Of a stretch of DNA of 64,000 nt, positions 10,499 to 21,784 are shown piece after piece (positions within the stretch are counted from its first letter, which is position 1; the number at the start of each line of letters is the position of its first letter). The notes under the pieces were generated by a model. The model saw nothing but the letters and a program-made list of their open reading frames with translations, was not told where the DNA came from and made no database searches. The translations under genes and the position numbers were made by a program. The stretch comes from Tumebacillus sp. BK434 (GTDB lineage: Bacteria > Bacillota > Bacilli > Tumebacillales > Tumebacillaceae): positions 281,689-345,688 of the forward strand of contig NZ_SLXS01000003.1 of assembly GCF_004340785.1 (NCBI RefSeq), given 5' to 3'.

Positions 10499-10571
10499 TG
10501 GGGTTGTTTTCAGGGAGATGGCACATATGCTTTCACAACAGAGTCTCTGCTTGAGAAAGGAGGCCCGCCTC

Positions 10572-11408
10572 TTGTACATCCCCGAAATCTTAGAGGGGGA
10601 AGCGCGGGGACGGCTGCGCAAGCTGTACCACAACATCAAATACACGCTGCATGTGCCGCTTATCAGCGACGTGTTTCGCGTGCTCGCACACTATCCGTCC
10701 TTCCTGACCTACGCGCTGGAAACGAGCCGCAGCAATCTGCTCTCCCATCATTTCGAGCAACTGTCCGACCAATTGCGCGCCATGCCTCCTCCGGCCCGCC
10801 CCCTGCCGGCCCTGCCGTCGTTTGTCACGCGGCGCGACCTGCGCGGCGCCGCGGCTGTGCTGCCCGTCTTCCACTACAGCAACGCCAAACTGCTGCTCTT
10901 GACCACCGCTTGGTATGAAGCGCTCTCCGAGCGCCCGATCCCCGGCTGGCAACAGGATGAAACGTTCATCCCGCCCGGCATCCCCGCCTCGTTTCCGAAG
11001 ACGGTGCCGCTCCTGCGCATCGAATCGGCACCGCCGGAGATCGCGCGCCTGTTGCGCCTGATCACCGACGCCCACTACGGGTTCGCACCGCCCGGCGACA
11101 TCCGCGCGCTGGCCTTATACCCGACATTCCTCGCCGGGGCTTGGCAAGGCGTGGAATCCTGCCTGCACACCCCCTGGTATCGCGACCAGACCGACCGCCT
11201 GCTCCACACCGCGCAATCGTTAGCCCGCAGCCTCCCCTACCCGCTTCCGCTCGCCCCCGGCCGCCTGCAGCAAGTGCTGAGCGAACGGGAGATCGCCTCC
11301 TGCCTTTCGATCATCGCCATGTACCGCAGCCTCCTCCCCAAGCTCATCCTCGACACCGAACTGATGATGGGCTTGCTGAACCGATCTGCTCAGACCTTTT
11401 GGATCTGA
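10572..11408 (+). CDS. DehI-like (halocarboxylic acid dehalogenase fold) protein
   Basis: 278 residues from a TTG at 10572, placed 8 nt after a strong AAAGGAGG site. It looks like an internal duplication: residues about 10-60 (KYTLHVPLISDVFRVLAHYP, SFLTYALETSR) and about 155-205 (DAHYGFAPPGDIRALALYP, TFLAGAWQGVE) align with each other, including the FR/IR-LA-YP core. This pseudo-dimer pattern and motif match the DehI family, whose founder is a D,L-2-haloacid dehalogenase. Whether this member dehalogenates anything is doubtful; Bacillales homologues are uncharacterised. The assignment is from memory of the family pattern. Confidence 0.62.
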   Translation: MYIPEILEGEARGRLRKLYHNIKYTLHVPLISDVFRVLAHYPSFLTYALETSRSNLLSHHFEQLSDQLRAMPPPARPLPALPSFVTRRDLRGAAAVLPVFHYSNAKLLLLTTAWYEALSERPIPGWQQDETFIPPGIPASFPKTVPLLRIESAPPEIARLLRLITDAHYGFAPPGDIRALALYPTFLAGAWQGVESCLHTPWYRDQTDRLLHTAQSLARSLPYPLPLAPGRLQQVLSEREIASCLSIIAMYRSLLPKLILDTELMMGLLNRSAQTFWI

Positions 11409-11410
11409 AA

Positions 11411-11442
11411 GAAAAAGAGGCGGCCTCGCATCTGCCGCCTCC
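11411..11442 (-). terminator. Terminator of methyltransferase-NUDIX gene
   Basis: On the minus strand GAGGCGGC, loop, GCCGCCTC is followed by TTTTTCTTTC. Confidence 0.75.
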
Positions 11443-11445
11443 TGT

Positions 11446-12810
11446 CTATTGCTTGATCCGCTCCAAAAGCCCGCTTGGCATCAGCAGTTTGTCCCCGCTG
11501 GCAAAATCGGCCAAGGGAACCCAGACCGCTTCATTTTGCGAGTCGCCATCCGTCAGTACAAACACATCCTGCTCATACTGCGTTTCGTCTGCCAGTCGCA
11601 CGCGGTACAGGGCGACGATCTCATGGCCCATGCTTCCTTCCACCCGGAAGATGTTCTCAAGAAAGCCGAGAAATTCCGCAGGTGTTACCTCCACTCCCAG
11701 CTCCTCGCGCAGTTCGCGCACGACCGCCTGCTCCGAATGCTCGCCAAACTCAATCCCTCCGCCCGGCGGACGGTAATAGACGCCTTCCCCGTACATGTGC
11801 TTGCCGACGATCTTTTCCACCAGGATCTTGCCCTGCTGTTCCACAATGCCCAGCGCGACCGGCCGCGGCTGTCGCGGACTTACAGCCTGCTCGACACGCT
11901 TGACGGCAAGCGTCACCCATTCCTCGCCCTGTCTGCGCTCGGCCACCGACCAGCCAAGCGCGGCAAAAGCGTCTGTCACCTGCGCCTCGATCCACTCGAC
12001 GATGCCCGACAGGAGCAGCACGCCCTCCTGTTTCACGATCCGCGTGAGCAGCGGGGCGAGCTCGATCGCTTCTTTGCCGCCGATGTTGACAGCCACCATG
12101 TCGAAACGGTGCTCCGCGTCGGCGAATTCTGTAAAAACATCGCCGATGATGATCGCGATGCCTTCGATACCGTTCAGTTCCATGTGGTAGCCGATGCTGC
12201 TTTCTGCCGACGGGTTGAGGTCGACCGCCACGACCGGATCGGCACCTTTCATCCGTGCCAGCAGGCTCAAGATCCCCGATCCGGCGCCGAGGTCGGCGAC
12301 CGCATCGCCGGGCCGCACCATGTCGTCGATCAGCTCCAGGCAATGCCGGGTCGTCGGATGCAGCCCGGTGCCGAATGCGGCCGACGGCTCGATGAGGATC
12401 GTCGTCTCCTCCGCCACGCGCTCTTCATCCCACGGCGGCCGAATCATCAGGCCGGGCCGGACTTCCAACGCCGTAAACTCGTAGACCGGATCTTCGGTCA
12501 CCGCTTGCGGCACGCTCGCCGTCACCTCATGGGCCAGCGGACCGAGCAGCGCCTCGATCTCGCCGCGCAGCTTCGCGAGCAGTTCATCTGTCGGCTCTTC
12601 CCCGACTTCCTCATAGGCACGGACGGTCGTCCGCTCAGTCTCGACTTCCTGATAGCCGTAGCCGTCCTCCGTCACAAACGTCTCAAACGGCGCATCGATC
12701 CACACGTACTCGATGCCCCGCATCTGCAGTTTCGCGATCGCTTCCTCCGCCCGCTCCGAATCGACGGCAAGCGCGTATTCGACATAGCGCGGTTCCTGTG
12801 CTTCACTCAT
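11446..12810 (-). CDS. PrmA-like methyltransferase fused to NUDIX hydrolase
   Basis: A single 454-residue frame joins two enzymes. Residues about 1-115 resemble the PrmA N-terminal substrate-recruiting domain. Residues about 120-305 are a class I SAM methyltransferase of the ribosomal-protein-L11 (PrmA) type: AAFGTGLHPTTRHCLELI, then DLGAGSGILSLLA (SAM site) and VAVNIGGKEAIEL. In the last motif, PrmA normally has NI-(L/V)-A, so the post-motif differs. Residues about 318-454 are a NUDIX domain with a perfect box: G-x5-E-x7-RELREELGV from GGIEFGEHSEQAVV. The linker is VEQAVSPRQPRPVALG. The start has a GAAAGGAG site. There is no frameshift or internal ribosome site that would suggest two proteins. 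The roles of both halves are inferred; the L11 target is not assured. Confidence 0.88.
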   Translation of the reverse strand: MSEAQEPRYVEYALAVDSERAEEAIAKLQMRGIEYVWIDAPFETFVTEDGYGYQEVETERTTVRAYEEVGEEPTDELLAKLRGEIEALLGPLAHEVTASVPQAVTEDPVYEFTALEVRPGLMIRPPWDEERVAEETTILIEPSAAFGTGLHPTTRHCLELIDDMVRPGDAVADLGAGSGILSLLARMKGADPVVAVDLNPSAESSIGYHMELNGIEGIAIIIGDVFTEFADAEHRFDMVAVNIGGKEAIELAPLLTRIVKQEGVLLLSGIVEWIEAQVTDAFAALGWSVAERRQGEEWVTLAVKRVEQAVSPRQPRPVALGIVEQQGKILVEKIVGKHMYGEGVYYRPPGGGIEFGEHSEQAVVRELREELGVEVTPAEFLGFLENIFRVEGSMGHEIVALYRVRLADETQYEQDVFVLTDGDSQNEAVWVPLADFASGDKLLMPSGLLERIKQ

Positions 12811-13027
12811 TCTGGCTTTCTCCTTTGCGCTTGAAATAGTAGCGGCGGATGCGAGTCGAGCAATCCGCCCTGATAGCCAACCATCCCGTTCACCGCCTCA
12901 CCCTCGAGTATACACGAAAAACTTGTCCGCCAGAAAATGGGACTTTTCTCCCAGAAGGAAATGGGGAAGACGCGGCGTAGGGTTATAACACGACAGATCA
13001 ATCCACCCCTCAAGGAGGCGTTTTAAC

Positions 13028-14855: not shown

Positions 14856-16103
14856 TTATGTTAAGCGATACAACAGCTCCTCCAGCTCCATCGCCTGCTG
14901 CCCGCCGGCAAGCAAGTCTTTCACCAGCAGCTTGCCGGCCGCCACTTCCTCCTCACCGACGATGACCGCCACCTTGGCTCCCAAGCGGTCGGCCCGCTTC
15001 AAGCCGCTCTTCAGCCCTTTGCCGCTGAAGTCCCGCTCCACCGTGAGCCCGGCCCGCCGCAGCGCATCGAGCGCCTTGAGCACGGCAACTTCGGCCGTGT
15101 CGCCAAGCGGGATCGCAAACACATCCACGCGTGGCTCCTCGCTGGCCAGCTTCACCCCCTGCTCCTGCAGCAGGAGCAACGCCCGCTCCAGCCCGGCGCC
15201 GAAGCCTACCGCCGGCAGCTCCATGCCCCCAAGCTCCGCATACAGTCCGTTATACCGCCCGCCGGCCGAAACGGTCGCTCCGGCTGCGGTCATCACTTCG
15301 AACACCGTCCGCGTGTAATAATCGAGTCCCCGCACCAGCCGCGCGTCGACCCGATAGGAGAGCCCCAAGGCATCCAGCCCTTGCACCACCCGGGCAAAAT
15401 GCGTCTGGCACGCCCCGCACAAGCAGTCCTGAATCGAAGGTGCACCCAGCACCGCCGCCTGGCAGCACGACTGCTTGCAATCGAGGATGCGCAGCGGATT
15501 CTTTTCCGAGCGGCGCTGACAGTCCCCGCACATCGCGTCGAGCCGCAGTTCCAGATACTCCAGCAGCTGTTCGCGATACTGCGGACGGCACTCCCGGCAG
15601 CCGACCGAGTTCAAGACCACCGTCAGCCCCTTGGCCCCGATCGCTTCGTAAAACCGCATCGCCAGCATCATCACTTCCACATCGGCCGCCGCGCTGTCAC
15701 TGCCGACCACTTCGACCCCAAACTGGTGATGCTGCCGCAGCCGTCCCGTCCCCGGCCGTTCATAGCGGAACATCGGCGCCAGATAGTACAGCTTGAGCGG
15801 CAGCGGCTCCACATACAGCTTGTTTTCCACCACCGCCCTCGCCACTGCCGACGTCCCTTCCGGGCGCAGCGTCAAACTCCGCCCGCCTTTGTCGAGAAAC
15901 GTGTACATCTCTTTCTCGACGATGTCCGTTCCGTCGCCGACGCCGCGCAGAAACAGCTCCGTGTGCTCAAACAGAGGGGTTCTGATCTCCCGGACATGGA
16001 AATGTCCGCACACCTCCCTTGCCGTTGCCTCAAGACGCTGCCAATCCTGCACTTCCTGCGGCAACAGATCTGCCGTGCCGCGCGGACGATTCACACGTTC
16101 CAT
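14856..16103 (-). CDS. hisS: Histidyl-tRNA synthetase with cysteine-rich insert
   Basis: Charges tRNA-His. It is 415 residues from ATG 16101-16103, with GAGGAGGG 8 nt upstream. Class II motifs are seen: RPRGTADLLPQE, TLRPEGTSAVARAV (motif 2 region), FRYERPGTGRLRQHHQFGVE, and the HisA signature LVRGLDYYTRTVFEV. The C-terminal anticodon-binding domain follows (VDVFAIPLGDTAEVAVLKAL). Residues about 165-240 are unusually rich in Cys: VGCREC, AMCGDCQRR, LDCKQSCCQAAV and DCLCGACQTH, ten Cys in about 75 residues. Expression is controlled by the T-box upstream. Confidence 0.95.
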   Translation of the reverse strand: MERVNRPRGTADLLPQEVQDWQRLEATAREVCGHFHVREIRTPLFEHTELFLRGVGDGTDIVEKEMYTFLDKGGRSLTLRPEGTSAVARAVVENKLYVEPLPLKLYYLAPMFRYERPGTGRLRQHHQFGVEVVGSDSAAADVEVMMLAMRFYEAIGAKGLTVVLNSVGCRECRPQYREQLLEYLELRLDAMCGDCQRRSEKNPLRILDCKQSCCQAAVLGAPSIQDCLCGACQTHFARVVQGLDALGLSYRVDARLVRGLDYYTRTVFEVMTAAGATVSAGGRYNGLYAELGGMELPAVGFGAGLERALLLLQEQGVKLASEEPRVDVFAIPLGDTAEVAVLKALDALRRAGLTVERDFSGKGLKSGLKRADRLGAKVAVIVGEEEVAAGKLLVKDLLAGGQQAMELEELLYRLT

Positions 16104-16139
16104 CTTCAAAACCCTCCTCGAAAAATTTGTCTGAGCAAA

Positions 16140-16450
16140 TAAAAAAAACTCCCATCCCATAACGGGACGAGAGCTTGCTCGCGGTACCACCCATCTTGCC
16201 ATGCACCGCCCAAGACAGCACATGACCACTCATCAGAGGTCAAAACGACTAACCCCTCTTCCGCTGATAACGGTGGAAGTCTCCGGTGACGTCTACCGGG
16301 CTGCCTGAGCAGCCTTTCGGGCCACAGCTCAAAGGTGTGTTTCCAAACGTCCTGACCCTCCGGTTCGCACCACCCACCGGCTCTCTGCGCGATCATAAAC
16401 GCTGTACTCTCCTTCTCACAGCTGTTCAATCATGATGGAAGTAATTTGTC
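16140..16450 (-). promoter_or_regulatory. T-box leader of hisS, specifier codon CAC (His)
   Basis: On the minus strand the leader carries the GAGAAGGAGAGTA motif (near 16405-16417), the AG-bulge/distal-loop sequence, a specifier loop reading GGAAA-CAC-ACC with the His codon CAC at 16337-16339, the T-box core GGGTGGTACCGCG (near 16180-16192), and a terminator (CTCTCGTCCC and GGGATGGGAG, then eight T) ending near 16140. Uncharged tRNA-His should pair with CAC and the T-box and so allow read-through into hisS. Confidence 0.94.
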
Positions 16451-19318: not shown

Positions 19319-20305
19319 TTACTCAGCCAGCACTTTCTTCAGCTCTTCGGTCAGGATCGGCACGATGTCGAACAGGTCGCCGACGATGCCGTAGTCTGCC
19401 ACTTTGAAGATCGGTGCTTCCGGGTCTTTGTTGATCGCCACGATCACTTTGGAGTTGGACATGCCCGCCAAGTGCTGGATCGCACCGGAGATGCCGACTG
19501 CAAAGTACAGGTCCGGGGTAACCACTTTGCCGGTCTGGCCGATCTGCAGCGCGTAGTCGCAGTAGTCAGCGTCGCAAGCGCCGCGGGATGCGCCGACAGC
19601 TGCGCCGAGGACTTCTGCCAGCTCATACAGCGGCTTGAAGCCTTCTTGCGATTTTACGCCGCGACCGCCGGAAACGATGATTTTCGCCTCGGACAGGTCG
19701 ACGCCGCCGGTCGACTTTTTCACCACTTCTTTGATGAAGGTGCGCAGGGAGCCAGCCGGGAGTTCCGCCCAGGTCTTTTCCACTTTCTCAGCGGAGCGGG
19801 AAGCGTCCGCTTCGTCTGCAGTCAGGTTGTTCGGTCGGACCGTTGCAAAGACGATATCGCCTGCGACGGTGTTTTTGGTGAACGCTTTGCCCGCATAGAT
19901 CGGACGGGTGAAGACGAGGTTGCCGCCGTCTTCGGTCACGTCGATGATGTCGGACACCTGGCCGGCAGCAAAGCGTGCAGCCAGCTTCGGCGCGAGATCG
20001 CGGCCGATCGCAGAGTGCGACATGAACACGAGGTTCGGGTTCACTTCTTTGATCATCGCTTCGAGAACTGCCGCGTACGCATCCGGCACGTAGTTCTCGA
20101 ATTGCGCATCGTCAGCGACCAGCACTTTGTCAGCGCCGTAGTGCGCCAGCGCGTCGGTGTTGACGTTCGCGCCGTTGTTGCTGATGATGGAAGCGACGAC
20201 GGTGCCGCCGTTCGCCAGCCGCTTGGCAGCGGACAGCATTTCAAAAGTCACGTTGCGGACCGCGCCGTTGCGCAGGTCTGCCAGTACGAGAATGGTTCTG
20301 CTCAT
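19319..20305 (-). CDS. etfA: Electron transfer flavoprotein alpha subunit
   Basis: 328 residues. With EtfB it carries electrons from acyl-CoA dehydrogenases to the quinone pool. The FAD-binding C-terminal domain is visible: [42 protein letters not shown] (read as two adjoining parts) and [16 protein letters not shown], then [22 protein letters not shown]. It is the third gene of a fadR-etfB-etfA order as in Bacillus. Confidence 0.96.
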
Positions 20306-20347: not shown

Positions 20348-21112
20348 TTACAGGACTTTCGCTTCGGTGCGCAGCAAGCCGACCAGTTCTTTGACGCGCG
20401 ATTCGTTGTCGCCTTCCAGAATGCGGCCGCCAGATTTTGCTGCCGGCAGGAACGTTTCCAGAACGGTGGATTTCTTCGCGATATCGCCTGCCACGTTCAG
20501 GTCGCCTGCGCCCGGGTTCGCGAGCGGCTTCTTGTTCGCTTTGCGAATCCCGATCAGAGACGGGTAGCGCGGGTCGTTGAGGCCTTGCTGGGCGGTGACG
20601 AGGATCGGCAAGGTGCCGCCGACGATCTCAAGGTCGCCTTCCGCGTCGCGGTGTGCCACGACATCGGTGCCATTGAGCTCGAGCTTGGTGATCGTGCTGA
20701 CGTGCGGGATGTTGAGCAGCTCGGCCAGACGGATCGCCACTTGGCCGGAACCGTCGTCAACCGCCTGGTTGCCGCAGAGGATGATGTCATAGGACTTGTC
20801 TTTCAGGTACGCAGCCAACACGTTGGATGCTGTATATTCGTCGCCAAAGAGGGACTCGTCGGTGATGTGAACCGCTTCATCTGCGCCCATCGCCAGCGCC
20901 GTGCGCAGCGCTTCCTGTGCGCGCTCCGGACCGATGGTGATGACGGTCACGGAACCGCCGTTTGCGTCACGCAGCTTGATCGCTTCTTCGACCGCGTACT
21001 CATCGTACGGGTTCATGACGAAGCGGACGCCGTCTTCTTTGACTTGGCCGTTTTCGACAACGATCTTTTCCTCAGTATCAAACGTTTGTTTGAGGCACAC
21101 GAAAATATTCAT
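20348..21112 (-). CDS. etfB: Electron transfer flavoprotein beta subunit
   Basis: 254 residues, partner of EtfA; it holds AMP. N-terminus MNIFVCLKQTFDTEEKI, then RFVMNPYDEYAVEEAIKL, ILCGNQAVDDGSGQVAIRLA and the QQGLNDPRYPSLIGIRKA signature. RBS GAAAGGAG. 42 bp separate it from etfA. Confidence 0.96.
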   Translation of the reverse strand: MNIFVCLKQTFDTEEKIVVENGQVKEDGVRFVMNPYDEYAVEEAIKLRDANGGSVTVITIGPERAQEALRTALAMGADEAVHITDESLFGDEYTASNVLAAYLKDKSYDIILCGNQAVDDGSGQVAIRLAELLNIPHVSTITKLELNGTDVVAHRDAEGDLEIVGGTLPILVTAQQGLNDPRYPSLIGIRKANKKPLANPGAGDLNVAGDIAKKSTVLETFLPAAKSGGRILEGDNESRVKELVGLLRTEAKVL

Positions 21113-21157: not shown

Positions 21158-21757
21158 CTATGCGCGAAGTCCGCCGACCATCACATCGTATACCGGCTGA
21201 ACCTGTGACTCCAGACTGTACTTCGCCCCGGTGAGAATCCACGCGGTCACAGTCTCGTCCATCGTCCCAAAAATCATGCGGCGGGCAATTCTCTTATCCA
21301 TACTTTCCCGAAAGACGCCGGATTCGATGCCCTTTAAAATCACTTCATCGATGATCTGGTAATACGGGCGGATGATGTCGCCGATCTGCTTGCGCATTTC
21401 CGCGTTGGACTGGCGCAAATGAACTTGTGTAAACATTGCCAAATCAGGATTGACACCAAAGATCCCGAAATAGATCGTGATCAACCCTTTGAGCGATTCG
21501 GCCGCATCCCCATCTCCGAGCTGCAGCTCGTCGTGGATCCGGTCGACAATCGTGCCGATCGTCTCGCGGAGAATCGAGATGAGAATGTCTTCTTTGTTCT
21601 TGAAATACAGATACACAGTACCATCTGCGACCCCCGCCTCCCTCGCAATCTTAGAGATTGGCGCATTGTGATAGCCGGCTTGGCCGATCACTTTGACGGC
21701 GGCATTGAGGATCGCCTCGTACTTTTCATTGTTCTTCTTCTGTGCGATCGTCCTCAC
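21158..21757 (-). CDS. fadR: TetR-family regulator, FadR of fatty-acid degradation
   Basis: About 200 residues; acyl-CoA-responsive repressor of beta-oxidation genes. The HTH (ISKIAREAGVADGTVYLYFK, then NKEDILISIL) and the segment QVHLRQSNAEMRKQIGDIIR, then FGTMDETVTAW are very close to Bacillus FadR. An in-frame ATG at 21781 would lie inside the FadR operator and almost at the predicted transcription start, so the true start is downstream. I place it at the GTG 21755-21757, but GAGGTGAGG also overlaps this codon and would better fit a start at ATC 21746-21748. The start is unresolved. Confidence 0.88.
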   Translation of the reverse strand: MRTIAQKKNNEKYEAILNAAVKVIGQAGYHNAPISKIAREAGVADGTVYLYFKNKEDILISILRETIGTIVDRIHDELQLGDGDAAESLKGLITIYFGIFGVNPDLAMFTQVHLRQSNAEMRKQIGDIIRPYYQIIDEVILKGIESGVFRESMDKRIARRMIFGTMDETVTAWILTGAKYSLESQVQPVYDVMVGGLRA

Positions 21758-21762
21758 CTCAA

Positions 21763-21780
21763 TGAATGAGTGTCCATTCA
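21763..21780. promoter_or_regulatory. FadR box (autoregulation)
   Basis: TGAATGAGTGTCCATTCA fits the Bacillus FadR consensus TGAATGAnTAnTCATTCA at both arms. It covers the predicted +1 of the fadR promoter and so should repress fadR-etfBA. Confidence 0.8.
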
Positions 21781-21784
21781 TTTC

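Follow-up and report, generated by a model that had tools for sequence, protein, structure and literature searches.

A probable recent fusion of a NIGG-type PrmA-like methyltransferase and a Nudix domain in Tumebacillus

We found that the window, by which we mean the whole 64,000-nucleotide stretch of Tumebacillus sp. BK434 DNA that was analysed, encodes a methyltransferase resembling PrmA, the L11 methyltransferase, joined in one frame to a Nudix domain. We consider it probable (about 0.7) that this gene arose recently when two overlapping genes fused, one for a methyltransferase that we call NIGG-type after the motif starting at its catalytic Asn (most likely a protein lysine methyltransferase), and one for a Nudix pyrophosphohydrolase. 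The fusion is probably real, local and young, and we infer both its direction of change and the activity of the two halves. The family of NIGG-type paralogues to which the first half belongs is the more interesting part of the finding.

The fused gene is a single frame of 454 residues on the minus strand (11446-12810) with no stop inside. The PrmA profile PF06325 covers residues 9-305 nearly end to end (145.5 bits, cut-off 22; profile positions 2-295 of 296), the NUDIX profile PF00293 covers residues 319-436 (50.4 bits, cut-off 21.1), and the 13 residues between the two matches form the linker. The Nudix box, for which we take the pattern to be G-x5-E-x7-REUxEExGU, reads intact in the letters of residues 351-373, and its invariant columns were seen in the alignment; the second half thus combines the PF00293 match with the complete box of the Nudix superfamily and is a predicted Nudix pyrophosphohydrolase domain. 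The frame, the Pfam matches and the box together bear out the earlier note, which had described an uninterrupted 454-residue frame with two complete domains. The features of the gene are as follows.

11446..12810, minus strand: fused gene, PrmA-like methyltransferase plus Nudix, 454 aa (frame and Pfam)
12820..12825, minus strand: ribosome binding site AAGGAG of the fused gene (best anti-Shine-Dalgarno pairing, -8.9 kcal/mol)
11896..12786, minus strand: PrmA-type methyltransferase with N-terminal domain, residues 9-305 (PF06325, 145.5 bits; model, Z 28.7)
12364..12378, minus strand: AFGTG motif, residues 145-149 (present in 56/56 aligned PrmA and paralogue rows)
12076..12087, minus strand: NIGG motif, residues 242-245 (Asn242 aligned with the Asn of PrmA NILA)
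11878..11886, minus strand: joint GCTGTAAGT (comparison with the T. lacus gene pair)
11503..11856, minus strand: Nudix domain, residues 319-436 (PF00293, 50.4 bits; model; Z 17.4 to 2pqv)
11692..11760, minus strand: complete Nudix box, residues 351-373 (sequence and invariant columns)
11415..11443, minus strand: terminator hairpin 3' of the fused gene (-18.1 kcal/mol, z -2.75)

The consensus terminator scan did not return the hairpin at 11415..11443, whose 9-base loop is one above the limit of that scan; a comparable hairpin (-21.3 kcal/mol, z -4.19) stands directly 3' of the T. avium methyltransferase gene, which has no Nudix part. The promoter scan found no promoter. A DehI-type gene (PF10778, 40 bits; 10551-11408, plus strand) converges on the fused gene, T. 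avium and T. lacus too have DehI-like frames adjoining the methyltransferase, and a histidyl-tRNA synthetase-type gene lies nearby (14856-16229, minus strand).

Predicted structures agree with this division into two domains. The blocks of the methyltransferase are mostly above 90 pLDDT in the full-length model, which as a whole is weaker (mean pLDDT 76.6, pTM 0.54), its Nudix half being poor because the alignment had methyltransferase rows only. Two further alignments were rejected for modelling, one because it misplaced the Nudix rows and the other because its conserved columns indicated the same. Modelled alone, the Nudix domain reached a mean pLDDT of 92.3 and superposed on 2pqv, a MutT/nudix family protein of Streptococcus pneumoniae, with Z 17.4 and rmsd 1.9 over 130 residues. 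The model of residues 9-305 matched PrmA, including the PrmA-L11 complex entries, with Z 28.7 and an rmsd of 6.8 over 249 residues, a high value that probably reflects two mobile domains; the next-best methyltransferases reached Z of about 20.

The origin of the joint can be read against T. lacus (locus L062, by coordinates the same place as G005), where the methyltransferase is followed by a separate Nudix gene, the two overlapping at GTGA, with a strong ribosome site (-9.4 kcal/mol) before the GTG. At the joint GCTGTAAGT of the fused gene, the methyltransferase frame is one base off the T. lacus arrangement and continues into the Nudix frame. In place of the GTG with which the T. lacus Nudix gene starts there is a GTA, and a TAA in the neighbouring frame stands where T. 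lacus has its stop (TGA). The T. lacus ribosome site is missing as well, the best anti-Shine-Dalgarno pairing before the joint being only -2.2 kcal/mol, and the absence of an internal ribosome site, which had been noted from the letters at the outset, is thereby confirmed. In a 23-row tree without outgroups, where T. lacus has a long branch, the Nudix half of the window and that of T. lacus are sisters (95/97); in an earlier tree with distant outgroups they stood side by side, unsupported (0.525) and not as sisters. Between these two Nudix halves dN/dS is 0.23, which points to purifying selection, at a dS of 1.9, near saturation. Third-position G+C is 0.70 in the Nudix half (window 11449-11886) vs. 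0.79 in the methyltransferase half, and T. lacus follows the same trend (0.78 for Nudix and 0.83 for the methyltransferase).

We reasoned that the ancestor would have carried the Nudix gene directly behind the methyltransferase gene, with a GTGA overlap as in T. lacus, that a one-base frame change would have taken away the methyltransferase stop, and that the Nudix start codon and ribosome site would have decayed afterwards. The outcome would be that both enzymes are made as one chain. The diverged N-terminal domain of the NIGG methyltransferase would aim it at its target. The fusion is known from one draft assembly (4.65 Mb in 32 contigs), and a sequence or assembly error could in principle have joined two genes overlapping as in T. 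lacus by one spurious base. We regard this as quite improbable. It would fit the single extra base upstream of the joint that makes the whole difference from the two-gene form, the neighbouring-frame TAA at the position that TGA has in T. lacus, and the lack of any other fusion among the 31 NIGG loci. It would also fit an overlapping ATG that lies about 12 codons upstream in another frame and could start the Nudix gene. However, a separate Nudix gene would be without its start at the T. lacus site, where GTA stands for GTG and the ribosome site is absent (-2.2 vs. -9.4 kcal/mol), and yet its domain is intact and constrained.

A fusion it may be, but a conserved one is ruled out: it occurs in 1/7 genomes of the window's family and nowhere else among the 31 NIGG loci, and the halves are separate overlapping genes in T. 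lacus, so the idea of the fusion as a conserved unit was given up. The earlier note had also set the finding of separate halves in close relatives against a genuine fusion; that they are separate in T. lacus weakens the case for a functionally required fusion. This is no ground for calling the fusion an artefact, as the second T. lacus gene has a start codon and a ribosome site that are both missing here. A scan of genome contigs returned two loci, those of T. avium and T. lacus, and of 21 plasmid records with a match none had a single place covering 80% of the query (among the matches listed, 5 of 21). Our literature search found nothing on a methyltransferase-Nudix fusion or on NIGG paralogues, and the one match to prmA, L11 and nudix was, as far as the accessible part of the text goes, a Streptococcus annotation paper.

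The Nudix partner is itself rare beside NIGG genes. Close relatives occur in 2/7 family genomes, the window's own and T. lacus (E <=1e-17), and the gene is dispensable, as the other five lack one. Within about 1.5 kb on each side, a recognisable relative of the fused Nudix was seen at 2/31 NIGG loci (again the window and T. lacus) and at none of the remaining 29, and methylation therefore needs no adjacent Nudix. The earlier note had supposed that the Nudix half may clear a nucleotide-linked product or an inhibitor, or may couple methylation to a nucleotide signal. T. avium, whose methyltransferase is 89% identical, has no Nudix at that place. What stands there, directly behind the methyltransferase, is a HIT-like gene recognised by eye (L061:4970-5356, minus strand); HIT proteins act on nucleotide phosphates too. 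In the simplest history an ancestral pair was lost about three times and fused once, and transfer between Tumebacillus lineages is possible.

These absences bear on the reading, which we think somewhat unlikely, that the Nudix half is a passive leftover heading for loss, an accidental fusion that is tolerated and has no shared role. Nudix is missing from 5/7 family genomes, T. avium does without it and has a comparable terminator right behind its methyltransferase, and one base sufficed for the fusion. Against it stand the complete box, the purifying selection and the confidently predicted fold. Fusion of this domain at the C-terminus also recurs, as two other genomes of the class have it behind a metallo-beta-lactamase domain. 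These two proteins, of family f7, have 430 and 424 residues (L107:1474-2763, minus strand; L109:679-1950, plus strand) and carry the same Nudix subfamily as their C-terminal domain behind a different N-terminal enzyme, so this Nudix domain has also been joined to another enzyme.

The subfamily has YRP-GG-IE at the start of the box, which sets the fused half apart from 2pqv, the nearest solved chain, with which it shares the Nudix fold and box. Its relatives are scattered: at E <=1e-17 they turn up in 22/398 genomes of the class, counting the window's own and T. lacus, and a phylum-wide Nudix search at E <=1e-22 gave 3/398 (the window's own among them). PF00293 matches 19 places in the genome of the window. 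Against TIGR00586, the MutT equivalog for 8-oxo-dGTP diphosphatase, the fused half scores 38 bits, below the cut-off of 97.9.

We turn to the methyltransferase half, for which the genome's own PrmA is the natural comparison. A whole-genome search found a second PrmA copy at C6, scoring 327.5 bits where the window copy scores 146.9; its frame has a DnaJ-like frame before it and an RsmE-like one after it (both named by reading their sequences). The earlier note had proposed that a separate prmA by dnaJ would make the window copy a paralogue, and this is what we found. The TIGR00406 equivalog, with a cut-off of 183.15, gives 132.8 for the window copy and 277.4 for the canonical one, and one copy above plus one below that cut-off were present in 33/33 genomes. 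These 33 were drawn from 42 genomes with a best match of E <=1e-35, the other nine being G292 and eight more. G292 had been a candidate for the NIGG paralogue on account of its strong match and was rejected, since by eye it carries a canonical prmA (NILA) beside DnaK- and DnaJ-like frames. Within the window's genome the catalytic domain of the paralogue is 34% identical to PrmA and the N-terminal domain 17%. For the 7/7 paralogues tried, the window's included, the best NCBIfam models were L11 methyltransferases, all of them below their cut-offs.

The window copy shares with PrmA (PF06325, TIGR00406; 2nxn, 3cjr) the fold over residues 9-305, AFGTG, the SAM motifs and the catalytic Asn. It differs in forming its own clade, in having NIGG and not NILA, in scoring below the equivalog cut-off, in lying away from dnaJ and in coexisting with a true PrmA; as a PrmA orthologue it was accordingly rejected on the cut-off, the neighbourhood, the canonical copy and the clade.

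In the alignment of 31 paralogues and 25 canonical rows, which covers 31 of the 33 genomes (G136 and G152 were left out), the motif starting at the catalytic Asn is NIGG in 30/31 paralogues and NIGA in one, vs. NIGG in 0/25 canonical rows, where it is NILA in 19, NILR in three, NIIA in two and NLVS in one. The window copy has NIGG and thus departs from the NI(L/I)A-type post-II motif of PrmA; its longer form, VNIGGKEAIEL, reads as the earlier note gave it. SGIVEW marks 24/31 paralogues (one or two letters differ in the remaining seven), and xEW(V/I/L)T is a further mark of the paralogues. The 31 NIGG and 25 canonical rows are separated by a single split (support 100/100; 100% of 200 bootstrap trees), with the window copy on the non-canonical side; the tree program warns of long branches meeting, which makes the split safer than any placement inside the tree. 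At least four families within the class carry the NIGG paralogue.

What the half methylates can be approached through the same residues. Asn242 is invariant in 27 aligned rows, and a SAM fold together with a post-II Asn or Asp at the target lysine is what characterises seven-beta-strand protein lysine methyltransferases; in PrmA, Asn-191 contacts the target Lys-39 of L11, according to the available part of PMC10238732. The NIGG half is most likely a SAM-dependent protein lysine methyltransferase, lysine being the presumed acceptor, and may direct PrmA chemistry at another protein. Its target is probably other than L11, in line with what had been suspected from the motif, as NIGG marks a true subfamily. 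We hold it to be unlikely that the half is instead another enzyme for L11, sharing the target of PrmA as a backup or under particular conditions. The PrmA fold, with the N-terminal domain included (Z 28.7 against a PrmA-L11 complex entry), the full-length PF06325 match and the shared catalytic Asn and AFGTG are all consistent with such an enzyme. Against it, a canonical PrmA coexists in 33/33 genomes, the paralogue has its own motifs (NIGG, SGIVEW and EW-T), its N-terminal domain is 17% identical to the genome's own PrmA, and its score lies under the prmA equivalog cut-off.

The surroundings of the gene in other families suggest where a target might be sought. In family f26 the NIGG gene is followed by genes for a thiolase, a LytR-type protein, an acyl-CoA ligase, a TetR/YsiA-type (FadR-type) regulator, an enoyl-CoA hydratase, EtfB and EtfA (names from Pfam in G116; three other f26 genomes were read as frames with homologous genes), neighbours that suggest a fatty-acid oxidation setting. 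At the f16 loci L089 and L095 the paralogue adjoins a UbiA-type gene, and at L089 also CtaA-type and SCO1 genes; this setting looks respiratory, the Pfam neighbours having pointed to cytochrome oxidase assembly. The f26 neighbours led us to the electron transfer flavoprotein (ETF), because METTL20 and its alpha-proteobacterial homologues methylate ETF-beta, which lowers electron transfer (PMC9006661 and PMC10238732, in the parts available). The relevant genes of the window, identified by the comparison with f26 and by Pfam and, for the two ETF genes, by the ETF search, are as follows.

19319..20305, minus strand: etfA (ETF alpha), near the fused gene, candidate link
20348..21112, minus strand: etfB (ETF beta), near the fused gene, candidate substrate
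21158..21781, minus strand: TetR-type regulator with a YsiA-like C-terminus, of the FadR type

The nearest ETF gene lies 6.3-10.0 kb from the NIGG gene in 6/7 genomes of the window's family (f1) and in 15/15 of f26, hence in 21/22 together, f1 and f26 being families of different orders; in the f1 exception, G006, ETF is on another contig than the NIGG gene. In f16, ETF is more than 240 kb away in 5/8 genomes and on another contig in 3/8, where the distance is not measurable, and in f31 it is more than 240 kb away in 3/3. Overall, 21/33 genomes have an ETF gene no more than 10 kb from the NIGG gene, vs. 0/33 for canonical prmA even within 11 kb (18 share a contig with ETF and 15 do not). Distances were taken from the upper part of the ETF table; by eye, its weaker rows lay close to no copy that had been scored as unlinked. 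The first 26 kb of the window were compared with nine stretches of f26, taken from five genomes. With shadow frames opposite the common genes set aside, the only common genes were the methyltransferase, etfA, etfB and the regulator. The comparison is one-sided, since only the ETF side of the f26 stretches had been lengthened. The gene order differs, the methyltransferase standing before etfBA in f26 and behind it in the window, and no neighbour was conserved across all four NIGG families in the stretches compared.

On this gene neighbourhood, ETF or another fatty-acid oxidation protein is a candidate target. The stronger proposal, that NIGG proteins are lysine methyltransferases of ETF-beta (or ETF-associated ones) and hence a PrmA-derived functional counterpart of METTL20/ETF-beta-KMT, we put forward tentatively and think fairly unlikely. 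It draws on the contrast between 21/33 and 0/33, on the four common genes, on the f26 order running from the methyltransferase through the fatty-acid genes to EtfB and EtfA, on the activity of METTL20 and its bacterial homologues on ETF-beta (PMC9006661, PMC10238732, both in part), and on the presence of ETF in 33/33 NIGG genomes. However, ETF is much wider than the NIGG gene (it is also encoded in 10/14 control genomes), the link was not seen in f16 (0/8, three not measurable) or f31 (0/3), and the f26 stretches were extended only on the side where ETF lies. In the window, moreover, unrelated genes on both strands separate ETF from the methyltransferase, and throughout the family the genes in between show no relation to it. 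The prmA-ETF distance is about 170-310 kb in every family where it is measurable, so the large-scale order is partly conserved, and inherited closeness of the NIGG gene and ETF is therefore a real alternative. With METTL20/ETF-beta-KMT and the alpha-proteobacterial homologues the NIGG protein would share the idea of a seven-beta-strand SAM lysine methyltransferase, its ETF target being suggested by neighbourhood; it differs from METTL20 in its N-terminal domain and motifs, which are of the PrmA kind. Our search found no paper tying an L11 methyltransferase to an etfB operon, or PrmA to ETF in Firmicutes.

A bolder extension, to which we give very little credence, is that bacteria would have evolved an ETF methyltransferase a second time, independently and from PrmA, in the form of the NIGG family. 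If this were true, methylation of ETF would tune the flow of electrons from fatty-acid oxidation, the Nudix domain joined to it in this organism would act on a cofactor which that pathway uses (FAD, CoA or some ADP-containing compound), and the fused protein would be a two-headed regulator of ETF.

The reading that we prefer, a recent fusion of an overlapping NIGG-type methyltransferase gene and Nudix gene, would make this locus a clean example of an overlapping gene pair turning into one protein, with the unfused form persisting in T. lacus. Beyond this locus, at least four families carry a second PrmA-like gene with its own clade and motif, which L11-methyltransferase models match best and yet below their cut-offs, and the link to etfBA offers a direct and cheap test of what the NIGG enzyme may target.
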